Below, in pieces: positions 14,691 to 37,984 of a DNA stretch of 37,984 nucleotides. The position numbers and the translations under genes were made by a program. The DNA is taken from positions 1-37,984 of IMG/VR virus record IMGVR_UViG_3300043773_000555; one strand, 5' to 3'. Position 1 is the stretch's first letter, and the number at the start of each line of letters is the position of its first letter. The stretch comes from a virus. A model generated the notes under the pieces. It was given only the letters and a program-made list of their open reading frames with translations. It was not told the origin of the DNA and made no database searches.

Positions 14691-14944
14691 TGGACAAGAG
14701 ATTCAAAAAGATCGTCACCAATCCCGCTACTGGTCGTAAGAAAACCATCAAGTATGGGCAAGCAGGTAAAGCCGCAGACGGAGGTGATCGTATTCGTCCT
14801 GGCACTGCCAAAGGCTCAAGCTATTGCGCTAGAAGCTACGGCATTAAAAAACGCTTGCCAGAAGCCCAACAAAATGATCCTAATACACCCAACAACTTAA
14901 GTCGAAAAAAATGGCGTTGCAGCGGAAGTAAATCAATAAAATAA
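14690..14944 (+). CDS. Basic conserved phage protein (DUF6321-like)
   Basis: 84 residues containing RKKTIKYGQAGKAADGGDRI, RPGTAKGSSYCARSYGIKK and NTPNNLSRKKWRCSGSKS. This set of phrases is highly conserved in a small phage protein family that I recall as DUF6321; the label is from memory. Two Cys residues could bind metal or form a disulphide. The function is unknown. Location after the portal fits a head-associated or DNA-associated role. Confidence 0.75.
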   Translation: MDKRFKKIVTNPATGRKKTIKYGQAGKAADGGDRIRPGTAKGSSYCARSYGIKKRLPEAQQNDPNTPNNLSRKKWRCSGSKSIK

Positions 14945-30512: not shown

Positions 30513-30589
30513 TGGGACTACTGACGGGCATTGAACCAGCGACCTCCCGCTTATAAGGCGGGTGCTCTAACCGTCTGAGCTACAGTAGC
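30513..30589 (-). tRNA. tRNA-Ile (anticodon UAU)
   Basis: Read on the minus strand: acceptor GCTACTG, D arm GCTC/GAGC, anticodon stem CCCGC/GCGGG with loop CTTATAA (anticodon TAT, reading AUA), T loop TTCAATG, acceptor 3' strand CAGTAGT, then C and an encoded CCA. The first acceptor pair is G-U, and the T stem (GCTGG against CCCGT) has one T-C mismatch and one G-U pair, so it is slightly degenerate. It lies at the head of the proximal minus-strand unit and would help decode AUA codons. Confidence 0.9.
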
Positions 30590-31444
30590 ATTGTCTCGCG
30601 ACGACCGAAACTTGCCAGAATCGCAGAAAAACGCAATATATTTTTGCAACTATTTTATTTTCCTATATTCTATAAGGCATTGCGCTTGCGTTTCGTTAGG
30701 GAAAACATCGGTGTTTTGCGGTGAATATCAGGGCTTGACAAGGATTTCCCTTGCGCTTTTTCGCAAATCTGCAACCTTTGCACATGCACCCAAGCAGGCA
30801 GCGGATTTTGCGAAGATTTAAGCTCATGAAAAAAAGGCACTTTGCCGCTTGGATGCTTGCATTTTTGCAAACGGTTTCCAGCAAGTGAGTTTTTACTTGC
30901 GCTTTTTTGCTCGGCTGGTATCTTTCGCTGGAGCTTGTCAAACGGTGTATGCCGCCTAGCAAGTGAGCAGATCCCCCACGCCTCTCAACGATGCGCACTT
31001 TGGGGGATATTTTCACTCCCTGAAAAATAATCCTTGCGTTTTCCGCTCATTGCGGTATTCTTCACCCGTTCGTGCGCTACTACCGCCGTAAAAGACTTTC
31101 TTGCTGTGTGTTCAAATAGCATCGAAGCCCGTTCAGAGGTAGTAGCCTGAACGGGCTTTTCATTTGCCCCTGTTCGATTCTGAAGACAGACCAAAACAAA
31201 GGACACCGCGAGAAGACGTGAATCTTCCACACTCATCACTAGGCACGGGAAGCGGGAAAGCTGCCAGCGTGTTGTCACCATGAGACTAAGCAGAGGTGGC
31301 AGGAGGTTGACTCCTAAGGGGCTGATTCCGATCATAAAAGCGCAGGGTAGATATTGTTTCTCATCGTGTGTGCTCTAGGGAGGTTATGAGACTAATTGTG
31401 TACAGAAATAAAAAGAACAGAATAAAGAAGAAAGAAAGAACGAT
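30590..31444 (+). other. 855-bp gap with iteron-like repeats and hairpins
   Basis: No convincing long gene. The motif CTTGCG followed by T-rich DNA recurs near 30684, 30750, 30897 and 31032. GCAAGTGAG occurs at 30881 and 30960. A 6-bp hairpin at 30881-30900 is followed by GCTTTTTT, and an 8-bp stem (30971-30978 with 31001-31008) precedes ATTTTC. ORFs in both directions here are short and poor. It probably holds the divergent promoters for the minus proximal unit and the plus gene at 31445, possibly also an origin or a short plus-strand RNA. Confidence 0.5.
31126..31161 (+). terminator. Strong rho-independent terminator in a gene-poor gap
   Basis: A perfect 11-bp stem (AGCCCGTTCAG at 31126-31136, CTGAACGGGCT at 31147-31157) with a 10-base loop is followed by TTTC. 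It ends plus-strand RNA although no plus-strand gene is upstream in this gap, suggesting a non-coding transcript or a barrier to transcription. Confidence 0.8.
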
Positions 31445-32840: not shown

Positions 32841-33647
32841 TTACAGGTATGCGGGTTTCTCGATAGTGGCAATCCCCTCATGCTGGCGCGGCCATGTGTC
32901 CGTAGCGCAGCAAGCTTGCCATTTCGCAAGTGCGTTCATGTAACCGATGCGCCCTGCCTCAATCAGTTCGGGTGAGACTTCAACCCATGCCGATTCGTGC
33001 GGTGAATCCACCTCGATAAAGCAGATGACAAAGCGTGTGCGCTTCTCTTCTGTGGCAGCGTTCCACAGGTCGAGATATAACGCAGCTTGCCAGTGATAAC
33101 CTCGGTCAATGATAGTATTGGTAATGTTCCGCAGACTGCCGATTTTCGCGGTAGTTTTGAGGTCTACCAGCAAATCAAGATTGTCAGGCACGAGGTCAAT
33201 CATGCCCTTAATCTCCGTTGCCCCGATAGTGGCAAAAACTGCTACCTCGGATTTGTAGCTACCAGCAAATCGTTGCGCATAGTCTTCAGAAAAGACCGCT
33301 TCACACCCTCCAGCGGCGGCGATATCGGCACCTGTGGCAATCATCTTGCCCATGGCTCGCGCATCGTCACGCCATTCCTGCGCTGCCTTCGTTCTGAAGT
33401 CAGAGTAAGGGGACACCGCTGCGATTACATCAAGCGGGATGTTTGGCTCTAGGATTGCGGCGTGAATCAGCGTGCCAAGATCCATCGCGCGGGTTGATTC
33501 TTTGCCATTGCTGTGTCGCCATTTGTAGGGTGATTGGTTGAAATCCCATAGCAGTGACTTGCTGACAGGTGCTGACAGGTTCGTCGGCGATGCGGAACGT
33601 GAGTAATACGCTCTGCCTAAGTTGTATTCAATAGTTGCGTTTTTCAT
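32841..33647 (-). CDS. RecE/YqaJ-like PD-(D/E)XK exonuclease
   Basis: 268 residues. MDLGTLIHAAILEP (55-68) gives the conserved His62; Glu134 in KSEVAVF, Asp151 in KGMIDLV and Asp162-x-Lys164 in LVDLKTT form the PD-(D/E)XK core. GYHWQAALYLD (about 183-193) is the Q-x-x-x-Y motif of RecB/RecE/YqaJ families. It would resect double-stranded ends for the ERF protein encoded next to it (four-base overlap). Confidence 0.82.
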   Translation of the reverse strand: MKNATIEYNLGRAYYSRSASPTNLSAPVSKSLLWDFNQSPYKWRHSNGKESTRAMDLGTLIHAAILEPNIPLDVIAAVSPYSDFRTKAAQEWRDDARAMGKMIATGADIAAAGGCEAVFSEDYAQRFAGSYKSEVAVFATIGATEIKGMIDLVPDNLDLLVDLKTTAKIGSLRNITNTIIDRGYHWQAALYLDLWNAATEEKRTRFVICFIEVDSPHESAWVEVSPELIEAGRIGYMNALAKWQACCATDTWPRQHEGIATIEKPAYL

Positions 33648-34222
33648 GGTTTTGCCTTGGCTTTAATTGCAAATGCTTTGTCGATGCTGGCAATTTTGTC
33701 AGTGGTCAACTGTGCTACGGATGTGACCCCGTAGTGCTTCAAAAATGCGGGTTCGTCGATAGCAAGAGCTTCGATGTTTTCGCGAATTCTGGCAGCTTCA
33801 CCGCTGGAAATGAGCGGGTAGACTGCGGGACGGTTATGCGCGGCAGATTGCCCGTCATCGTCCTCCTGTGCTACCCCACAGACTGCTGCGAGCGAATAGC
33901 GTCGAAGATAGGTCGTTGCTGCTCCCACGCCTTGCCCGTCCATCTTAGCTGGGACGCATGACATGGTGCCGAAGATATACCCTCCACCGCTGTGGGCGAT
34001 AGTGGTCGTCACGTGACAGATTGCGCCGTCAAACGATGGCGACTGGATGACTGATAGTCCATTCGCCGCCAAGACGGGGCGAACAGTGTTCAGGACTTCG
34101 GCAAGATCCGCATATTTCGATTTGAAATGTGGATTTAGCGAGCCTTTTGTGGCGTTTTCGACTTCACCCTGCATTTTTGCAAGGGCTGTGAATAGTTCTG
34201 GTGTGCTGTGTTCTAGGTTCAT
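33644..34222 (-). CDS. erf: ERF-family single-strand annealing protein
   Basis: 192 residues. NPHFKSKYADLAEVLNTVRP (30-49) and then GQGVGAATTYLRRYSLAAVC followed by GVAQEDDDGQ (about 96-125) are the hallmarks of the ERF superfamily. It anneals complementary single strands in phage recombination, likely circularising or repairing DNA with the neighbouring exonuclease. The C-terminal part is variable and Ala/Lys-rich. Confidence 0.92.
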   Translation of the reverse strand: MNLEHSTPELFTALAKMQGEVENATKGSLNPHFKSKYADLAEVLNTVRPVLAANGLSVIQSPSFDGAICHVTTTIAHSGGGYIFGTMSCVPAKMDGQGVGAATTYLRRYSLAAVCGVAQEDDDGQSAAHNRPAVYPLISSGEAARIRENIEALAIDEPAFLKHYGVTSVAQLTTDKIASIDKAFAIKAKAKP

Positions 34223-34244
34223 TGTATTTTGGTGTTTGCTTGGC

Positions 34245-34583
34245 TCATGCCTCGCAGGTGTTGTTTTTAGTGGTTTCTATGGTTTGTTCAAGGATAATTT
34301 CTGAATATCTTTGCAGTATCTTATGCATTCGTTCTTTTGACTTCTCGCAATAGTGCAAGCGTTCATAAGTCTTTTTACGTGCGTAAAATGCTGCGGTGTG
34401 ATGGGTTCGGTTCACGATCTCGGCTGAGTCCTGGAGCGAGTGAGCTTCACTCCACAGAGTCATGACGATCTGCCTAGCGAGAGCCTCGGCGAACCGTTTG
34501 CGTTTGCCAGCGATAGCCTCGGGAGTCACCCCGAGAACATCAGCCACGGATTGGATTAACGCGCTTTTGTTGTCGATCAGCAT
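34245..34583 (-). CDS. Stand-alone DnaA domain IV-like protein
   Basis: 112 residues from MLIDNKSALI at 34583. SVADVLGVTPEAIAGKRKRF resembles the first helices of DnaA domain IV, and NRTHHTAAFYARKKTYERL (58-76) its signature helix (R-D-H-T-T-V in DnaA). There is no ATPase domain. It probably binds DnaA-box-like sites, either to recruit the host machinery to the phage origin or to compete with host DnaA. No clear consensus DnaA box was found by eye. The C-terminal half is basic and helical. Confidence 0.65.
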   Translation of the reverse strand: MLIDNKSALIQSVADVLGVTPEAIAGKRKRFAEALARQIVMTLWSEAHSLQDSAEIVNRTHHTAAFYARKKTYERLHYCEKSKERMHKILQRYSEIILEQTIETTKNNTCEA

Positions 34584-34819
34584 GAGAAAAGGGAAACTAG
34601 TTGTTTGCGCAGGTTGTCCGAAATGATCATGGTGGAATCTGTAGCCGATGCCCATCTGTCGACGTGCATTTCTGAGCAGGTTAACACCCAATTCACGCGA
34701 TCATTTGCAGGGGGAATGATCCGAAAATAAGTGCCAGTGAGTTTTTTGGTCTGCACGTCTTTTGTCTTGCTGTCGGTGATGATAACGAGGGGATCTTCTG
34801 TTTTCTGGTATAGTATCAT
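34577..34819 (-). CDS. Hypothetical protein downstream of ribozyme A (80 aa)
   Basis: A small beta-rich protein (EDPLVIITDSKTKDVQTKKL, TYFRIIPPANDRVNWVLTCS). Its ATG has no Shine-Dalgarno sequence. After hammerhead cleavage its mRNA would begin 20 bases upstream with a 4-bp hairpin. It overlaps the DnaA-like gene by seven bases. The function is unknown. Confidence 0.6.
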   Translation of the reverse strand: MILYQKTEDPLVIITDSKTKDVQTKKLTGTYFRIIPPANDRVNWVLTCSEMHVDRWASATDSTMIISDNLRKQLVSLFSC

Positions 34820-34827
34820 AGTTTATT

Positions 34828-34886
34828 TGGCGTTTGCCATACACCCCGCAGGGTGTTTCGATCTTTGCCTGGATCTCATCAGTGGC
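34828..34886 (-). ncRNA. Hammerhead ribozyme A (type I)
   Basis: Minus-strand RNA: stem I 5' strand GCCA, core CUGAUGA (34882-34876), stem II GAUC/GAUC with loop CAGGCAAA, core GAA (34859-34857), stem III ACACCC/GGGUGU with loop UGCG, then A at 34840 as the cleavage-site nucleotide and UGGC as the stem I 3' strand. Cleavage is expected between 34840 and 34839. UGGC then forms a hairpin with the downstream GCCA. The element begins one base after the stop codon of the gene at 34887. Confidence 0.93.
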
Positions 34887-35150
34887 TCAAGAACAGCAGC
34901 CGCAGCAGGGCGCGTCCTCGCATCGACCAGATCTGTTACGGTAAATCACGGCTCCGCTGTTCATGCGGTAAAATGTGGTTTTGTCGTAGCTGTGGCTAAT
35001 GCTACGGCTTGGCGCGCCTGAGACTAGGGCGCGCGCCTCATCTGCCACTTCATCGGGGACATCCCAGCCCTTGGCTAGTTTGTTCCATTTTCCGCCCAAA
35101 GCTTTGAGCGCGTCTTTGACGGGGTAAGTGTTTCCTGTTATCGTTTGCAT
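34887..35150 (-). CDS. Conserved domain protein with Cys-rich tail
   Basis: 87 residues. ITGNTYPVKDALKALGGKWN and KGWDVPDEVADEARALV form a small domain seen, as I recall, in phage and helicase-associated proteins of unknown function. The tail GRCEDAPCCGCCS has five Cys and may bind metal. The gene is flanked by ribozymes B (5') and A (3'), so cleavage at both sites would release it as a single-gene mRNA of about 350 nt. Confidence 0.75.
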   Translation of the reverse strand: MQTITGNTYPVKDALKALGGKWNKLAKGWDVPDEVADEARALVSGAPSRSISHSYDKTTFYRMNSGAVIYRNRSGRCEDAPCCGCCS

Positions 35151-35176
35151 CTTGTGTTGTGTTGTGTTGTGTTATT

Positions 35177-35233
35177 TGGCTCTTGCCAGACCCTTTCGGG
35201 TTTCGATCCTTGCCGAAGATCTCATCAGTGGCA
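35177..35233 (-). ncRNA. Hammerhead ribozyme B (type I)
   Basis: Minus-strand RNA: UGCCA, CUGAUGA (35228-35222), stem II GAUCUU/AGGAUC with loop CGGCA, GAA (35204-35202), stem III ACCC/GGGU capped by a GAAA tetraloop, then C at 35189 in the canonical GUC site, and UGGCA closing stem I. Cleavage is expected between 35189 and 35188. Stems II and III differ in sequence from copies A and C but keep pairing. The UGA stop of the gene at 35225 lies inside CUGAUGA. The 3' product can form UGGC/GCCA. Confidence 0.94.
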
Positions 35234-35575
35234 TTTTGCTTTGGCGATTTCATCGCCTGCTATTCTGGCAATAGTTAGCAAGTCCCCTCGTCCTGGTGCA
35301 TTCGGGAAGGTTAAAGCGGCAAGTTCGGCTTGTGTCTTTATCGCGATTAATGCATTCAATAAGCTAGGAGCGGCAGCGATGAGTTCGGCATTTTTCCATG
35401 CCTCCTCCCATCCGTCCCCGTGTTCTTCTCCGTCTGAATCAGGCGGCGTGTCCTTTTCGTGCATGTTTGGGTGCAGTTCGCGGTTTCCCTCGCAGTAGGT
35501 TACGGCGAGAATGGTTTCTCCGCTGTAGATTGTGCAGCCTTCAGCTTTCCATTTTCCTTGTGTGTGCGTTATCAT
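35225..35575 (-). CDS. Conserved phage protein of the THTPGPW-like type
   Basis: 116 residues. THTQGKWKAEGCTIYSGE at the start and NAELIAAAPSLLNALIAI near 62-79 match a very common small phage accessory family whose function is unknown. The stop codon lies within the core of ribozyme B, so ribosomes finishing this gene would sit on the ribozyme. Its leader is an ACACA-type repeat. Confidence 0.75.
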   Translation of the reverse strand: MITHTQGKWKAEGCTIYSGETILAVTYCEGNRELHPNMHEKDTPPDSDGEEHGDGWEEAWKNAELIAAAPSLLNALIAIKTQAELAALTFPNAPGRGDLLTIARIAGDEIAKAKCH

Positions 35576-35602
35576 GTTTCTTGTGTTGTGTTGTGTTGAG
35601 TA

Positions 35603-35761
35603 TTAAAGAGCCGTTACCACCACCACAAGGGCAGCACAGAGCAAGGCTCCGAATGTTACGGCGGCGGCATAGTAGAGGGCGCGTGATAGTGCTATGGCAG
35701 CGGTTTTGATAGGGTTACGGCGCGGGAGCGGGCGGCGGATTAGTGAGCAAGTTGGTTGCAT
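35603..35761 (-). CDS. Small membrane protein (52 aa)
   Basis: Read from MQPTCSLIRRPLPRRNPIKT at 35761; the extension to 35824 would overlap the gene upstream. One C-terminal transmembrane segment (YYAAAVTFGALLCAALVVVV) is preceded by Arg-rich residues, consistent with a cytoplasmic N-terminus. The function is unknown. Confidence 0.55.
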   Translation of the reverse strand: MQPTCSLIRRPLPRRNPIKTAAIALSRALYYAAAVTFGALLCAALVVVVTAL

Positions 35762-35805
35762 AGTGGTCTGTGTTGTGCTGTGTACGGTTTCTGTGATAGT
35801 GTAGG

Positions 35806-36057
35806 TTAAACATAGTCGGTCCATGCACCACCGTCATATTGCACGCATGGCAAATCGAGATAGTCACGGGCGGCATCAATAAGTGCCTGCGAGCGGTCGA
35901 AAGCGGCAGCATGGAATTGCTTCGGGACATGCTCCCACCATGCGCTCATTTTCGCATCGTAGGTTGCGAATCTGTATTGACCCCCAAAGATTGACAGCGT
36001 TGATACGTTTTGGCGAGCGTGCTTGATAGCTGCGGATTTTGTGACAGTAGTTTTCAT
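35806..36057 (-). CDS. Conserved small phage protein (83 aa)
   Basis: VSTLSIFGGQYRFATYDAKM, then WEHVPKQFHAAAFDRSQALI and ARDYLDL. A compact alpha/beta protein that I believe recurs in phage early regions without known function. It has a CA-rich leader (ACAACACACAGACAAA) in place of a Shine-Dalgarno sequence. Confidence 0.6.
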   Translation of the reverse strand: MKTTVTKSAAIKHARQNVSTLSIFGGQYRFATYDAKMSAWWEHVPKQFHAAAFDRSQALIDAARDYLDLPCVQYDGGAWTDYV

Positions 36058-36084
36058 TTTGTCTGTGTGTTGTGTTGTATTGTT

Positions 36085-36291
36085 TTACAAGGTAGCGCGT
36101 GACGCTAGTTTTTCGGAGATCATGCCAGACTTGGCAAGATAGTCCACAAAATCGCTAAATGCCGTGCGCGTGTCTGTATTGTGTCTGTTTTGTGGGGCTG
36201 TTTTGATACCCCATTTGCGAGCGTGGTTTTCTAGCGCGGGATGAGAAGCCCAAAATTGGGCGCGGATTGCTTTTTGAGTAGTCATTTTCAT
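36085..36291 (-). CDS. Small conserved protein downstream of ribozyme C
   Basis: 68 residues from the ATG at 36291, or 66 from the ATG at 36285 (MTTQKAIRAQFWASHP). TRTAFSDFVDYLAKSGMISE followed by KLASRATL is typical of a small phage family of unknown function. The longer in-frame ORF to 36351 is rejected because its extra residues are encoded by the ribozyme. After cleavage exactly 20 nt remain before the ATG at 36291. Confidence 0.7.
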   Translation of the reverse strand: MKMTTQKAIRAQFWASHPALENHARKWGIKTAPQNRHNTDTRTAFSDFVDYLAKSGMISEKLASRATL

Positions 36292-36299
36292 GTTGTGTG

Positions 36300-36358
36300 T
36301 GGCATTTGCCATACACCCCGCAGGGTGTTTCGATCTTTGCCTAGATCTCATCAGTGGC
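36300..36358 (-). ncRNA. Hammerhead ribozyme C (type I)
   Basis: Minus-strand RNA: GCCA, CUGAUGA (36354-36348), stem II GAUCU/AGAUC with loop AGGCAA, GAA (36331-36329), stem III ACACCC/GGGUGU with loop UGCG, A at 36312, then UGGC. Cleavage is expected between 36312 and 36311. The next bases AAAU then GCCA allow the same product hairpin as in A and B. It starts 13 bases after the stop of the first early gene. Confidence 0.94.
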
Positions 36359-36371
36359 TTGTTGATTTTTG

Positions 36372-37082
36372 TTATGCCATCGCTGCCGCCGATGCCTTGG
36401 CGGTCTTACTTCCGTGGGGATTAATCCAAACGCTTTTTGCAGGTTTTGACCATCCTTGGCACAGTTGGCATTGTGCGCATGTTAAACCACGAGAGTCTGC
36501 TAGGCATTCGACAGTGTTTGCTGGTTGTACGGGTGAGACGTGGAAAACACGCAATTGGAGGGAGTTAGCAAGCTCGAGGCTCGAGGCTGTTTCTGTACTG
36601 ACCATGAAAAACTGATTGTAAGCGTTCCGTTTGGCGGCAGGCATGGTTTTCCAATTGTGAAAGTACCCTGTCCAACCCGTGCTAGCCTTGGCAATTGCTT
36701 TCACCATGGAAAGGGGAATTAAAGTAGGGTTGCCATACGCTCCGAAGCGTACTTTTTCGCCGCTAAATGCTTTTGCGTAGTCTTTTGGCATGAGTTTTGG
36801 CATGTTCCCGCTGTGGTATGATTTCCAGATGGCCAAAGGAGATTGGCCGACGTTAACATAACAGCCGTTACCAGATGCGAAAGGGCAACCCTCGCAAATT
36901 GTCACAGCGTCCAAACCAGACTGCACAGCGGCGACAGGGTTGACATCAGCGAGCATAATCCAGATCTGAATCATATCACCCGTTTTACGGTTTTGTGATT
37001 CACGAGTGAAACCAGATGCTGCTACGAAATAGCGTTGACCGTTTTTTGTGCCTTCATGCAGGATGTAAGTGTTATTTTTCAT
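36372..37082 (-). CDS. Conserved early phage protein (DUF7227-like)
   Basis: 236 residues from the ATG at 37082; a TTG two codons upstream (37088) is possible. CEGCPFASGNGCYVNVGQSP, KVRFGAYGNPTLIPL and a late TCAQCQLCQGW match a phage family I recall as DUF7227. Conserved Cys groups suggest metal binding. The function is unknown. It is the first gene of the distal minus-strand unit and so probably the earliest expressed. A weak promoter lies immediately upstream. Confidence 0.72.
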   Translation of the reverse strand: MKNNTYILHEGTKNGQRYFVAASGFTRESQNRKTGDMIQIWIMLADVNPVAAVQSGLDAVTICEGCPFASGNGCYVNVGQSPLAIWKSYHSGNMPKLMPKDYAKAFSGEKVRFGAYGNPTLIPLSMVKAIAKASTGWTGYFHNWKTMPAAKRNAYNQFFMVSTETASSLELANSLQLRVFHVSPVQPANTVECLADSRGLTCAQCQLCQGWSKPAKSVWINPHGSKTAKASAAAMA

Positions 37083-37087
37083 GTTCA

Positions 37088-37114
37088 AGTATATATTCGA
37101 GTTGTGGTCACCAA
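37088..37114 (-). promoter_or_regulatory. Putative early promoter
   Basis: On the minus strand TTGGTG (37114-37109) is followed after 15 bases by TATACT (37093-37088). Transcription would start near the ATG at 37082, giving a nearly leaderless mRNA. The spacer is short, so the call is tentative. Confidence 0.35.
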
Positions 37115-37278
37115 TCGCGGCGACAGGCGAAAGATAACCAATTCAGAGGGAATGTCTACAACATTTTAGCAACTATTTTCACTTTTCTTCTTTTCTGTTG
37201 ATTCTCAAAGGTTTATTGCATGAGATTTTTTCAGCATTGCCAGCAATAAGTGGGGAAAACAGAGAGTAAAGCGTCAAT

Positions 37279-37322
37279 TCAAGAGAGAATCAACAGAGAA
37301 TCAAGAGAGAATCAAGGGAGAA
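37279..37322. repeat. Four tandem 11-bp repeats
   Basis: TCAAGAGAGAA, TCAACAGAGAA, TCAAGAGAGAA and TCAAGGGAGAA are directly abutting. The purine-rich iterons lie next to the A/T-rich DNA and could bind an initiator such as the DnaA-like protein encoded at 34245. Confidence 0.9.
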
Positions 37323-37557
37323 GTAGCGAGGTAGAAGCATTGGTGGAAAGTATCTCAGAAACCTATTCACTCACTTGAAAGAATATCATCAACACACGCG
37401 AGGCAATCGCAAGCAAGTAACGGATGTCATCAGTGCATTAGCAACTAGCCTTTGGTGTACTGATTATAATGACCAATCACAAAACATGTCAAGCATAAAT
37501 TTTTCCGTTAGATTACGCTCTGTGTTGTGGCGATACCTGGACGACATGCCAGCTATT

Positions 37558-37770
37558 CAAGCGAGTGTTTCACACGGGTGTAGCGGCAATGCAAGCGAGT
37601 GATTCAAGCGAGCGTTTAAGTGTGGCGGCTGACATGTTGGGCGAGTGATTCATACGGACGTTTCAGCAGTGCTGTGCCGGTGCTGTGCCGGTGCTGTCTC
37701 GAGCTGTGCGGTGCTGTCGGTCCGGTGATGCGAGCGATCGTCCCGGTGCTGTCCCGGTGCTGTCTCGAGC
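37558..37770. repeat. Degenerate direct repeats, G/C-rich
   Basis: Variants of GCGAGTGATTCA occur near 37561, 37595, 37609 and 37641. GTGCTGTGCCG is in tandem at 37669-37690. CCGGTGCTGTCTCGAGC is repeated at 37688-37704 and 37754-37770. They grade into the 15-bp array that follows. Confidence 0.75.
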
Positions 37771-37837
37771 GGTGCTGCTGTTCCGGTGCAGATCAAGCGG
37801 GCGATTTATACAAACGTTTGATTTGCTAGGTGTGCGG

Positions 37838-37942
37838 ATGAGCAGTGTGAGGATGAGTACTGTTCAGGTGAGTACTGTTCAGGTGAGTAGTGTTCAGGTG
37901 AGTAGTGTTCAGGTGGGCAGTGTTTGCATGAGTAGTGTTCGG
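37838..37942. repeat. Seven tandem 15-bp repeats
   Basis: Consensus RTGAGTAGTGTTCAG; each unit starts with ATG or GTG, and the array continues into the left end of the window (bases 1-85) because the ends overlap. The period of 15 is a multiple of three, so an open frame runs through it (a 49-codon ORF from 37838 to base 130 across the junction), but the array is more likely a protein-binding iteron set. Confidence 0.9.
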
Positions 37943-37984
37943 ATGAACGGGGGGAGGGGGTCGCGCGCGCGTTGCTTACGATTA
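37858..37984. repeat. Right copy of 127-bp terminal direct repeat
   Basis: Identical to bases 1-127. See the left copy. Together they show circular closure or direct terminal redundancy. Confidence 0.95.

Follow-up and report, generated by a model that had tools for sequence, protein, structure and literature searches.

The virus record IMGVR_UViG_3300043773_000555 of IMG/VR, analysed here from position 1 to 37,984 (37,984 bases, hereafter the window), carries on its minus strand three type I hammerhead ribozymes, which probably act between the genes of a leftward early phage operon as processing sites and natural insulators. As judged by sequence comparison, these elements have a hammerhead fold, a fixed place before a given gene, a loop II pseudoknot and the potential of one stem I strand to re-pair after cutting. 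From these features we infer cleavage in the cell, the order of folding and an effect on message stability or translation. Phage hammerhead clusters, their pseudoknots and the idea of processing have been known since 2011 (Perreault et al., PMC3088659). The design around the ribozyme, with its re-pairing product hairpin and its fixed downstream gene, appears to be new as far as checked; the literature searched, which consisted of main texts with incomplete coverage, did not yield any previous account of the re-pairing.

By inspection, the minus strand reads three times GCCA-CUGAUGA-stem II-GAA-A, stem III, U-H-UGGC. The core C3 U4 G5 A6 N7 G8 A9 ... G12 A13 A14 - A15.1 ... U16.1 H17 is complete in every copy and is surrounded by three helices, of which stem I is open and stems II and III are closed by loops. 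Copy A (34828-34886, minus strand) has a 4-bp (base pair) stem I formed by GCCA at 34886-34883 and UGGC at 34839-34836, the core CUGAUGA at 34882-34876, a stem II of GAUC/GAUC with the loop CAGGCAAA at 34871-34864, GAA at 34859-34857, and a stem III of ACACCCU-GC-GGGGUGU at 34856-34841; H17 is A34840, and the cut is predicted between 34840 and 34839. Copy B (35177-35233, minus strand) has a 5-bp stem I of UGCCA/UGGCA, the core at 35228-35222, a stem II of GAUCUU-CGGCA-AGGAUC, GAA at 35204-35202 and a stem III of ACCC-GAAA-GGGU at 35201-35190, with C35189 as H17 and the cut between 35189 and 35188. Copy C (36300-36358, minus strand) is nearly identical to copy A, from which copy B differs; its stem I is 4 bp long, its core lies at 36354-36348, its stem II is GAUCU-AGGCAA-AGAUC and its stem III is that of copy A, with A36312 as H17 and the cut between 36312 and 36311. 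Cleavage after H17, leaving a 2',3'-cyclic phosphate and a 5'-OH, is expected of hammerheads and is predicted here. The initial annotation, made from the sequence alone, had placed the cuts after 34840, 35189 and 36312, in agreement with these H17 positions. It had described the core and stems correctly but had left out the pseudoknot, the product hairpin and the constant association with the gene that follows; the different stem II that it gave to copy B is different in the loop and inner pairs but not in the outer GAUC/GAUC pairs.

A strict type I descriptor matched the window exactly three times, at copies A, B and C, and matched none of 200 dinucleotide-preserving shuffles searched on both strands; together with the covariation described below, these results bear out the claim of three minus-strand hammerheads with a full type I core. 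A covariance model trained in this study on 34 related sequences, all of which differ from the window copies, scored copy A at 73.1 bits (E 3.9e-20), copy B at 67.8 bits (E 1.6e-18) and copy C at 72.8 bits (E 4.6e-20). The E-values are rough, and some training rows lie 1-2 bases from copy A or C, so that the scores express family membership and not independent discovery. A further match of 16 bits at 14769-14812 on the plus strand, in a coding region and lacking the core, was rejected as chance.

The initial annotation had proposed a search with Rfam hammerhead models as a check and had named the lack of a covariance-model match above threshold as a refutation. Our own model gave E-values of 2e-18 to 4e-20, but none of the three copies reached the gathering threshold in Rfam 15. 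The best Rfam matches were RF02275 Hammerhead_HH9 (23.0 bits), RF03152 RAGATH-1 (23.6 and 21.6 bits) and RF00008 Hammerhead_3 (19.5-20 bits), all far below gathering: the window copies score 19.5-23.6 bits, whereas the gathering scores are 48.5-56.3 bits. That the copies merely resemble hammerheads by chance, a reading that hardly deserves credence, would agree with this failure. However, as a control, Rfam at gathering also returned no hammerhead in six loci that together hold about 30 descriptor-passing copies, and because these were missed equally, the negative result reflects blindness of the models to the whole group. After this control, Rfam was rejected as the arbiter of hammerhead identity; its gathering score is a cutoff set for the database and does not define the family by structure. 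Chance resemblance is further contradicted by the absence of matches in the shuffles and by conservation with covariation in dozens of contigs.

Covariation was examined in a MAFFT alignment of the 34 related sequences. Stems I, II and III were paired in 100% of cells, with compensatory changes in each stem; the pseudoknot was paired in 88% of cells, and all pairs together in 97%. Double changes occurred in 9 of 18 pairs and amounted to 61 cells, compared with 16.5 in shuffles, none of which (0/500) was as high. When the partner strand was slid by 1-3 columns, pairing fell to 20-41%; both the shuffles and the slid controls leave the relatedness of the sequences in place. Most of the covariation came from stem II, one pair of which appears as C-G, U-A and A-U, and the catalytic core was invariant over all rows (columns 7-10, 12-13 and GAA-A). 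Moreover, in all three copies the GGC of loop II can pair with a GCC in the tail just 3' of stem I (34831-34829 in copy A), forming a pseudoknot of 3 bp in copies A and B and of 4 bp in copy C. Three of its pairs are invariant; the fourth covaries in two of the 34 sequences and is lacking in 16. Other loop II/tail pairs were found by inspection in distant phage hammerheads, namely GGU/ACC in L332 and L374, GAC/GUC in L332, and GGG/CCC and UAGC/GCUA in L102. This pseudoknot is the type of stabilising contact described and tested by Perreault et al. (PMC3088659).

The 3' strand of stem I, UGGC, has two GCCA partners: pairing with the upstream one gives the active ribozyme, and pairing with the downstream one gives the product. 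The downstream RNA of each cut begins with UGGC-N4-GCCA, which would form a 4-bp hairpin at the extreme 5' end. After cut A this hairpin is UGGC-AAAC-GCCA (34828-34839, minus strand, predicted -5.0 kcal/mol), which competes with stem I and the pseudoknot; after cut B it is UGGC-AAGA-GCCA (35177-35188, minus strand, predicted -5.0 kcal/mol), followed by the CA-rich leader AAAUAACACAACACAACACAACACAAG; and after cut C it is UGGC-AAAU-GCCA (36300-36311, minus strand, predicted -4.7 kcal/mol). Since the hairpin strands hardly vary within the group of the window, re-pairing was tested on a wider set of unrelated phage hammerheads obtained from pattern scans. With one copy taken per locus (n = 35), re-pairing of at least 4 bp was found in 15-16 copies, against 7.0-7.6 with permuted tails (p ≤ 4e-4); with one copy per distinct stem I strand (n = 20), p was 0.003. 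The re-pairing of the 3' strand of stem I with the tail therefore covaries across unrelated phage hammerheads, as a tendency. Re-pairing strands were also seen in three cultured phages found by a later similarity search, Faecalibacterium phage FP_Brigit (GCGGG..CCCGC), Aphanizomenon phage vB_AphaS-CL131 (GUGGG..CCCAC) and Flavonifractor phage Castelnaud (ACGG..CCGU), by means of a query that had a similar tail and yielded aligned parts mostly stopping before the complementary strand. These three hammerheads have one extra U before stem II and for that reason were missed by the descriptor; that of Castelnaud lies in the opposite orientation to the annotated genes.

The relatives in IMG/VR show, at the level of sequence comparison, that the ribozyme belongs to the downstream gene, with which it stays while the upstream genes change. 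A hammerhead stands directly before the 80-amino-acid gene 'MILYQ...' that follows copy A in 22 of 22 relatives (some of these contigs are near-identical), its core about 59-66 nucleotides from the AUG. The gene following copy C has a hammerhead at its junction in 7 of 8 relatives, the eighth, L283, having another structured element instead. In L052/L187, a relative of 37,980 bases, all three slots are kept with different stems. The gene at 35806-36057, which has no ribozyme in the window, served as a control; of its six relatives, five likewise lack one, and L292 carries one. Loci with four to seven hammerheads in a row before successive genes were found in the phages or prophages L310, L391, L387, L332, L102 and L009; seven copies, in L310 and L391, were the maximum, and none of the copies in the multi-copy loci tested reached Rfam gathering. 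Among the matches listed in a pattern scan of GTDB, almost all were chance, and descriptor-passing copies came only from L102, a Geminicoccaceae metagenome-assembled genome with at least four copies, and L172, a Clostridia metagenome-assembled genome with one. No covariance-model match was found in 388 genomes from the phylum of a Verrucomicrobiaceae genome, and no hammerhead was found in C75C1, the closest named phage (54% identity in the major capsid protein and 43% in the terminase). In L283, at 2563-2860 on the minus strand, a second, inverted copy of the relative of 34577-34819 has a hammerhead lacking its core; this copy may have arisen by fold-back in the assembly or may be a true inverted duplication.

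The same junctions bear on two further explanations. The elements might be mobile or recombinational boundary modules by which small early genes are swapped, with cleavage being incidental, as the near identity of copies A and C beside the different copy B, the varying upstream genes before the same downstream gene, and the presence of hammerheads before other genes (L292) or of other structured elements in the same place would allow. This explanation is improbable because a recombination linker would conserve sequence and not structure, whereas at the A junction the sequences of stems II and III change among the 22 relatives with compensation and the core, the pairing and the product hairpin stay. 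Slightly less probable still is that degenerate, inactive hammerheads are kept only because they give the upstream messages structured 3' ends that block exonucleases. In favour of this, stem III forms a stable hairpin, and a U.U mismatch closes stem II in L190, among the relatives at the A junction, and in the near-identical L284 and L285 at the C junction; however, a mere barrier would not need the core that is invariant in all 34 rows.

The ribozymes lie in a run of minus-strand genes. A perfect match to a sigma-70-like promoter, TTGACA-18-TATAAT (37463-37492, minus strand; a consensus match only), stands upstream of the operon, and no terminator-like site was found on the minus strand from 34200 to 37984. 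The operon then proceeds leftward through 36372-37082 (phrog_2554, the first early gene, whose stop lies 18 nucleotides before core C), ribozyme C, the 68-amino-acid gene 36085-36291 (start 20 nucleotides after the cut), the small genes 35806-36057 and 35603-35761 (together 35603-36057), whose leaders are CA-rich only, without a ribozyme, and the 116-amino-acid gene 35225-35575 (phrog_1273) to ribozyme B. After ribozyme B come the 87-amino-acid gene 34887-35150 (phrog_2656/5664, with a weak DUF5710 match and a stop ending 5 nucleotides before core A), ribozyme A, the 80-amino-acid gene 34577-34819 (start codon 20 nucleotides after the cut), a DnaA-HTH (helix-turn-helix) protein, and the replication and recombination genes at 32841-34222, comprising an ERF annealase (33644-34222) and an exonuclease (32841-33647), which would be carried by the long RNA that starts at cut A. 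As in clusters of the Perreault type, three junctions are occupied in one same-strand run with a single promoter match and no terminator match between them. The promoter, the lack of terminator-like sites, the conserved core and the covariation uphold the proposal that one early operon transcript is processed, and three cuts would give RNAs of about 1.1 kilobases (kb), about 1.1 kb and about 0.35 kb, and a long replication-module RNA. In the gene 34887-35150, the stretch 34887-34980 (minus strand), which encodes a C-terminal CEDAPCCGCC, is conserved at the DNA level in many mycobacteriophages (161 records), which are very distant phages.

The distance from cut to AUG is 20 to 38 nucleotides. 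Among 44 window-type hammerheads, the 20 nucleotides that precede the assigned AUG never contain GGAG, GAGG or AGGA. Motifs like the Shine-Dalgarno (SD) sequence were seen in 3 of 29 window genes, which suggests a host with SD-independent initiation. The early leaders (34600-37100) consist of CA-rich repeats, for example ACACAACACAACACAAG-AUG. The copies had been described as lying exactly between genes, which does not hold for copy B: the stop UGA of 35225-35575, at 35227-35225, forms part of its CUGAUGA core, and the gene itself belongs to a genuine family, phrog_1273. An upstream open reading frame ends inside CUGAUGA in 23 of 43 cases (offset +3) and 5 nucleotides before it in 11 of 43; these fractions are uncertain, as the longest open reading frame ending nearby was counted and the core always holds a UGA. 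A terminating ribosome would cover such a ribozyme, so that translation and cutting may exclude each other at any given moment.

The following sequence of events would account for the processing. Once the polymerase passes the junction, the 5' strand of stem I, GCCA, would pair with the fresh UGGC and the hammerhead would fold; the emerging tail GCC would then dock into the GGC of loop II as a pseudoknot, and the RNA would be cut after H17. The upstream message would retain the ribozyme as a structured 3' end. In the downstream message, the 5'-OH UGGC would leave stem I and re-pair with the tail into the 4-bp 5'-terminal hairpin, followed by a short unstructured leader without an SD sequence before the AUG. 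Such refolding should favour release of the products, hinder re-ligation, and shield the 5' end or make it uniform, and the arrangement would be a natural counterpart of the engineered insulator RiboJ.

Several observations weigh against processing of this kind or limit it. About half of the wider set misses the 4-bp re-pairing rule, so re-pairing is a tendency. Within the window group, where the hairpin strands hardly vary, the two CGGC variants drop one hairpin pair without compensation, so that the hairpin there may be a side effect of conserving the pseudoknot strand. Furthermore, conservation does not extend to the copy-B slot, the gene that follows it having a plain CA-rich leader in most relatives. 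In addition, with the pseudoknot left uncounted, the product hairpin is predicted to make the full-length RNA 1.0-1.3 kcal/mol more stable than stem I does, and uncut RNA could be trapped in an inactive state. The same energies would suit an off switch in which UGGC-N4-GCCA forms in the uncut RNA and dissolves stem I until a signal or a translating ribosome tips the balance to the hammerhead, with cutting being regulated. The full-length minimum-energy folds of all three copies contain the hairpin without stem I, the upstream stops at or in the core would place terminating ribosomes on the ribozyme, and regulation of some phage hammerheads was a speculation of Perreault et al. (PMC3088659). 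An off switch is nonetheless unlikely: the energy model omits the pseudoknot, worth roughly -2.6 kcal/mol (GGC/GCC) to -4.2 kcal/mol (GGCA/UGCC) as an isolated duplex, stem I can form during transcription before the competing tail exists, and no ligand-like domain is present. Folding of single sequences was rejected as a test of the hammerhead since it leaves pseudoknots unmodelled and favours the product hairpin; both folds and a truncated RNA were evaluated instead. In RNA ending just 3' of stem I, the hammerhead is the minimum-energy fold (-16.1, -12.6 and -17.8 kcal/mol for A, B and C). For intercistronic processing, these energies are consistent with a near-balanced switch that would be driven first through its active state by the order of transcription.

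Other structured RNAs occupy comparable junctions in related phages. In a distant relative, a twister-P1-like element (L211:4279-4335; L295:898-954 on the minus strand in the same contig), which scores 37.4 bits (E about 1e-4) and so falls short of gathering, lies directly 3' of the relative of 34887-35150, a junction at which the window group has a hammerhead. The same contig carries a long hairpin, CGCCCGUUG...CAUAGGGCG (L211:3931-3967), in the leader before the copy-B-type gene. This element, UGAUUGCCUCGCCCGUUG-hairpin-CAUAGGGCGG..CAAACA..CCGC, was found in 14 sequences in total, the others being L283, L287, L036, L037, L044, L049, L050, L189, L212, L294, L296, L299 and L300, in phage leaders where others have hammerheads. 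In its consensus fold 7 pairs are changed on both sides, and no Rfam match was obtained for it in the loci scanned; it is possibly an RNase III site or another RNA or ribozyme. These sequences suggest that processing at the junction is selected, whichever RNA performs the cut. A broader reading, tentative and somewhat more apt to fail than to hold, is that phage hammerheads are widespread, unrecognised three-strand self-capping insulators converted irreversibly on cutting, with junctions filled by interchangeable elements (hammerhead, twister-like, long hairpin) and processing being selected.

Two other RNAs were observed in the window. An abiF RNA at 30972-31008 (plus strand) matches Rfam RF03085 above threshold (45.3 bits) and also occurs in L052 and L189; no Abi_2/AbiF protein gene was found in the window, and the orphan RNA could be a decoy against a host AbiF. 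A tRNA at 30516-30589 (minus strand) has the anticodon loop CUUAUAA, read as UAU, for isoleucine. Positions 1-127 are identical to positions 37858-37984, an exact terminal repeat of 127 bp that suggests a complete genome, circular or terminally repeated. The repeat probably arose as an overlap in the assembly of a circle; assemblers also often use 127 as a k-mer overlap length.

The initial annotation had considered three hammerheads in one operon unusual. Prophage clusters published in 2011 (PMC3088659) and the loci with four to seven copies described above argue otherwise. Perreault et al. described prophages in which several hammerheads border one gene or a block of genes; a set of three in Agrobacterium tumefaciens undergoes cleavage in E. 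coli, and prophage clusters also cleave in vitro. Those clusters resemble the window set in the core, in the type I topology among those described, in the loop II pseudoknot with the strand beside stem I, in the several copies that flank genes or blocks, and in the proposed processing of long phage RNA. The present set adds proof, from comparison of relatives, that a copy remains tied to one specific downstream gene, the re-pairing of the 3' strand of stem I with the tail, which was not found in the accessible part of PMC3088659, and the leaders without SD sequences, the stop codon in the core and the scores below Rfam 15 thresholds. In the haloviruses HF1 and HF2 (HHphage), as in the window, a hammerhead lies upstream of an early gene (13 nucleotides from its start), and the 5' end of the early-gene transcript maps within 3 nucleotides of the cut site (PMC3088659). 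Unlike the window copies, that hammerhead has a variant core, belongs to an archaeal virus and is a single copy before the first open reading frame, as opposed to three within an operon.

The early operon of phage T7 is cut between genes at RNase III sites. These sites are like the window ribozymes in their job and their place, but need a host enzyme; by analogy, the long hairpin at such junctions in related phages could be of the RNase III-site kind. RiboJ is a self-cleaving ribozyme derived from a hammerhead, behind which lies a hairpin that forms the 5' end of the cut message; it gives a uniform leader and increases expression (PMC6206723). Like RiboJ, the window elements would have a self-cleaving ribozyme and then a predicted 5' hairpin before the start codon. 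RiboJ was engineered from sTRSV with a separate 23-nucleotide hairpin, whereas the window hairpin comes from the ribozyme's own stem I strand.

In conclusion, the role of phage hammerheads has been open since 2011, and the comparative evidence now points to a concrete and testable one, in which the ribozyme is part of the following gene's leader and leaves a self-made hairpin on the message of that gene. The same solution, a hairpin after a ribozyme, was designed independently by synthetic biologists in RiboJ. If this role is true, phage genomes hold a large stock of natural context-buffering expression parts, some of them in cultured phages, that are overlooked by current Rfam thresholds.

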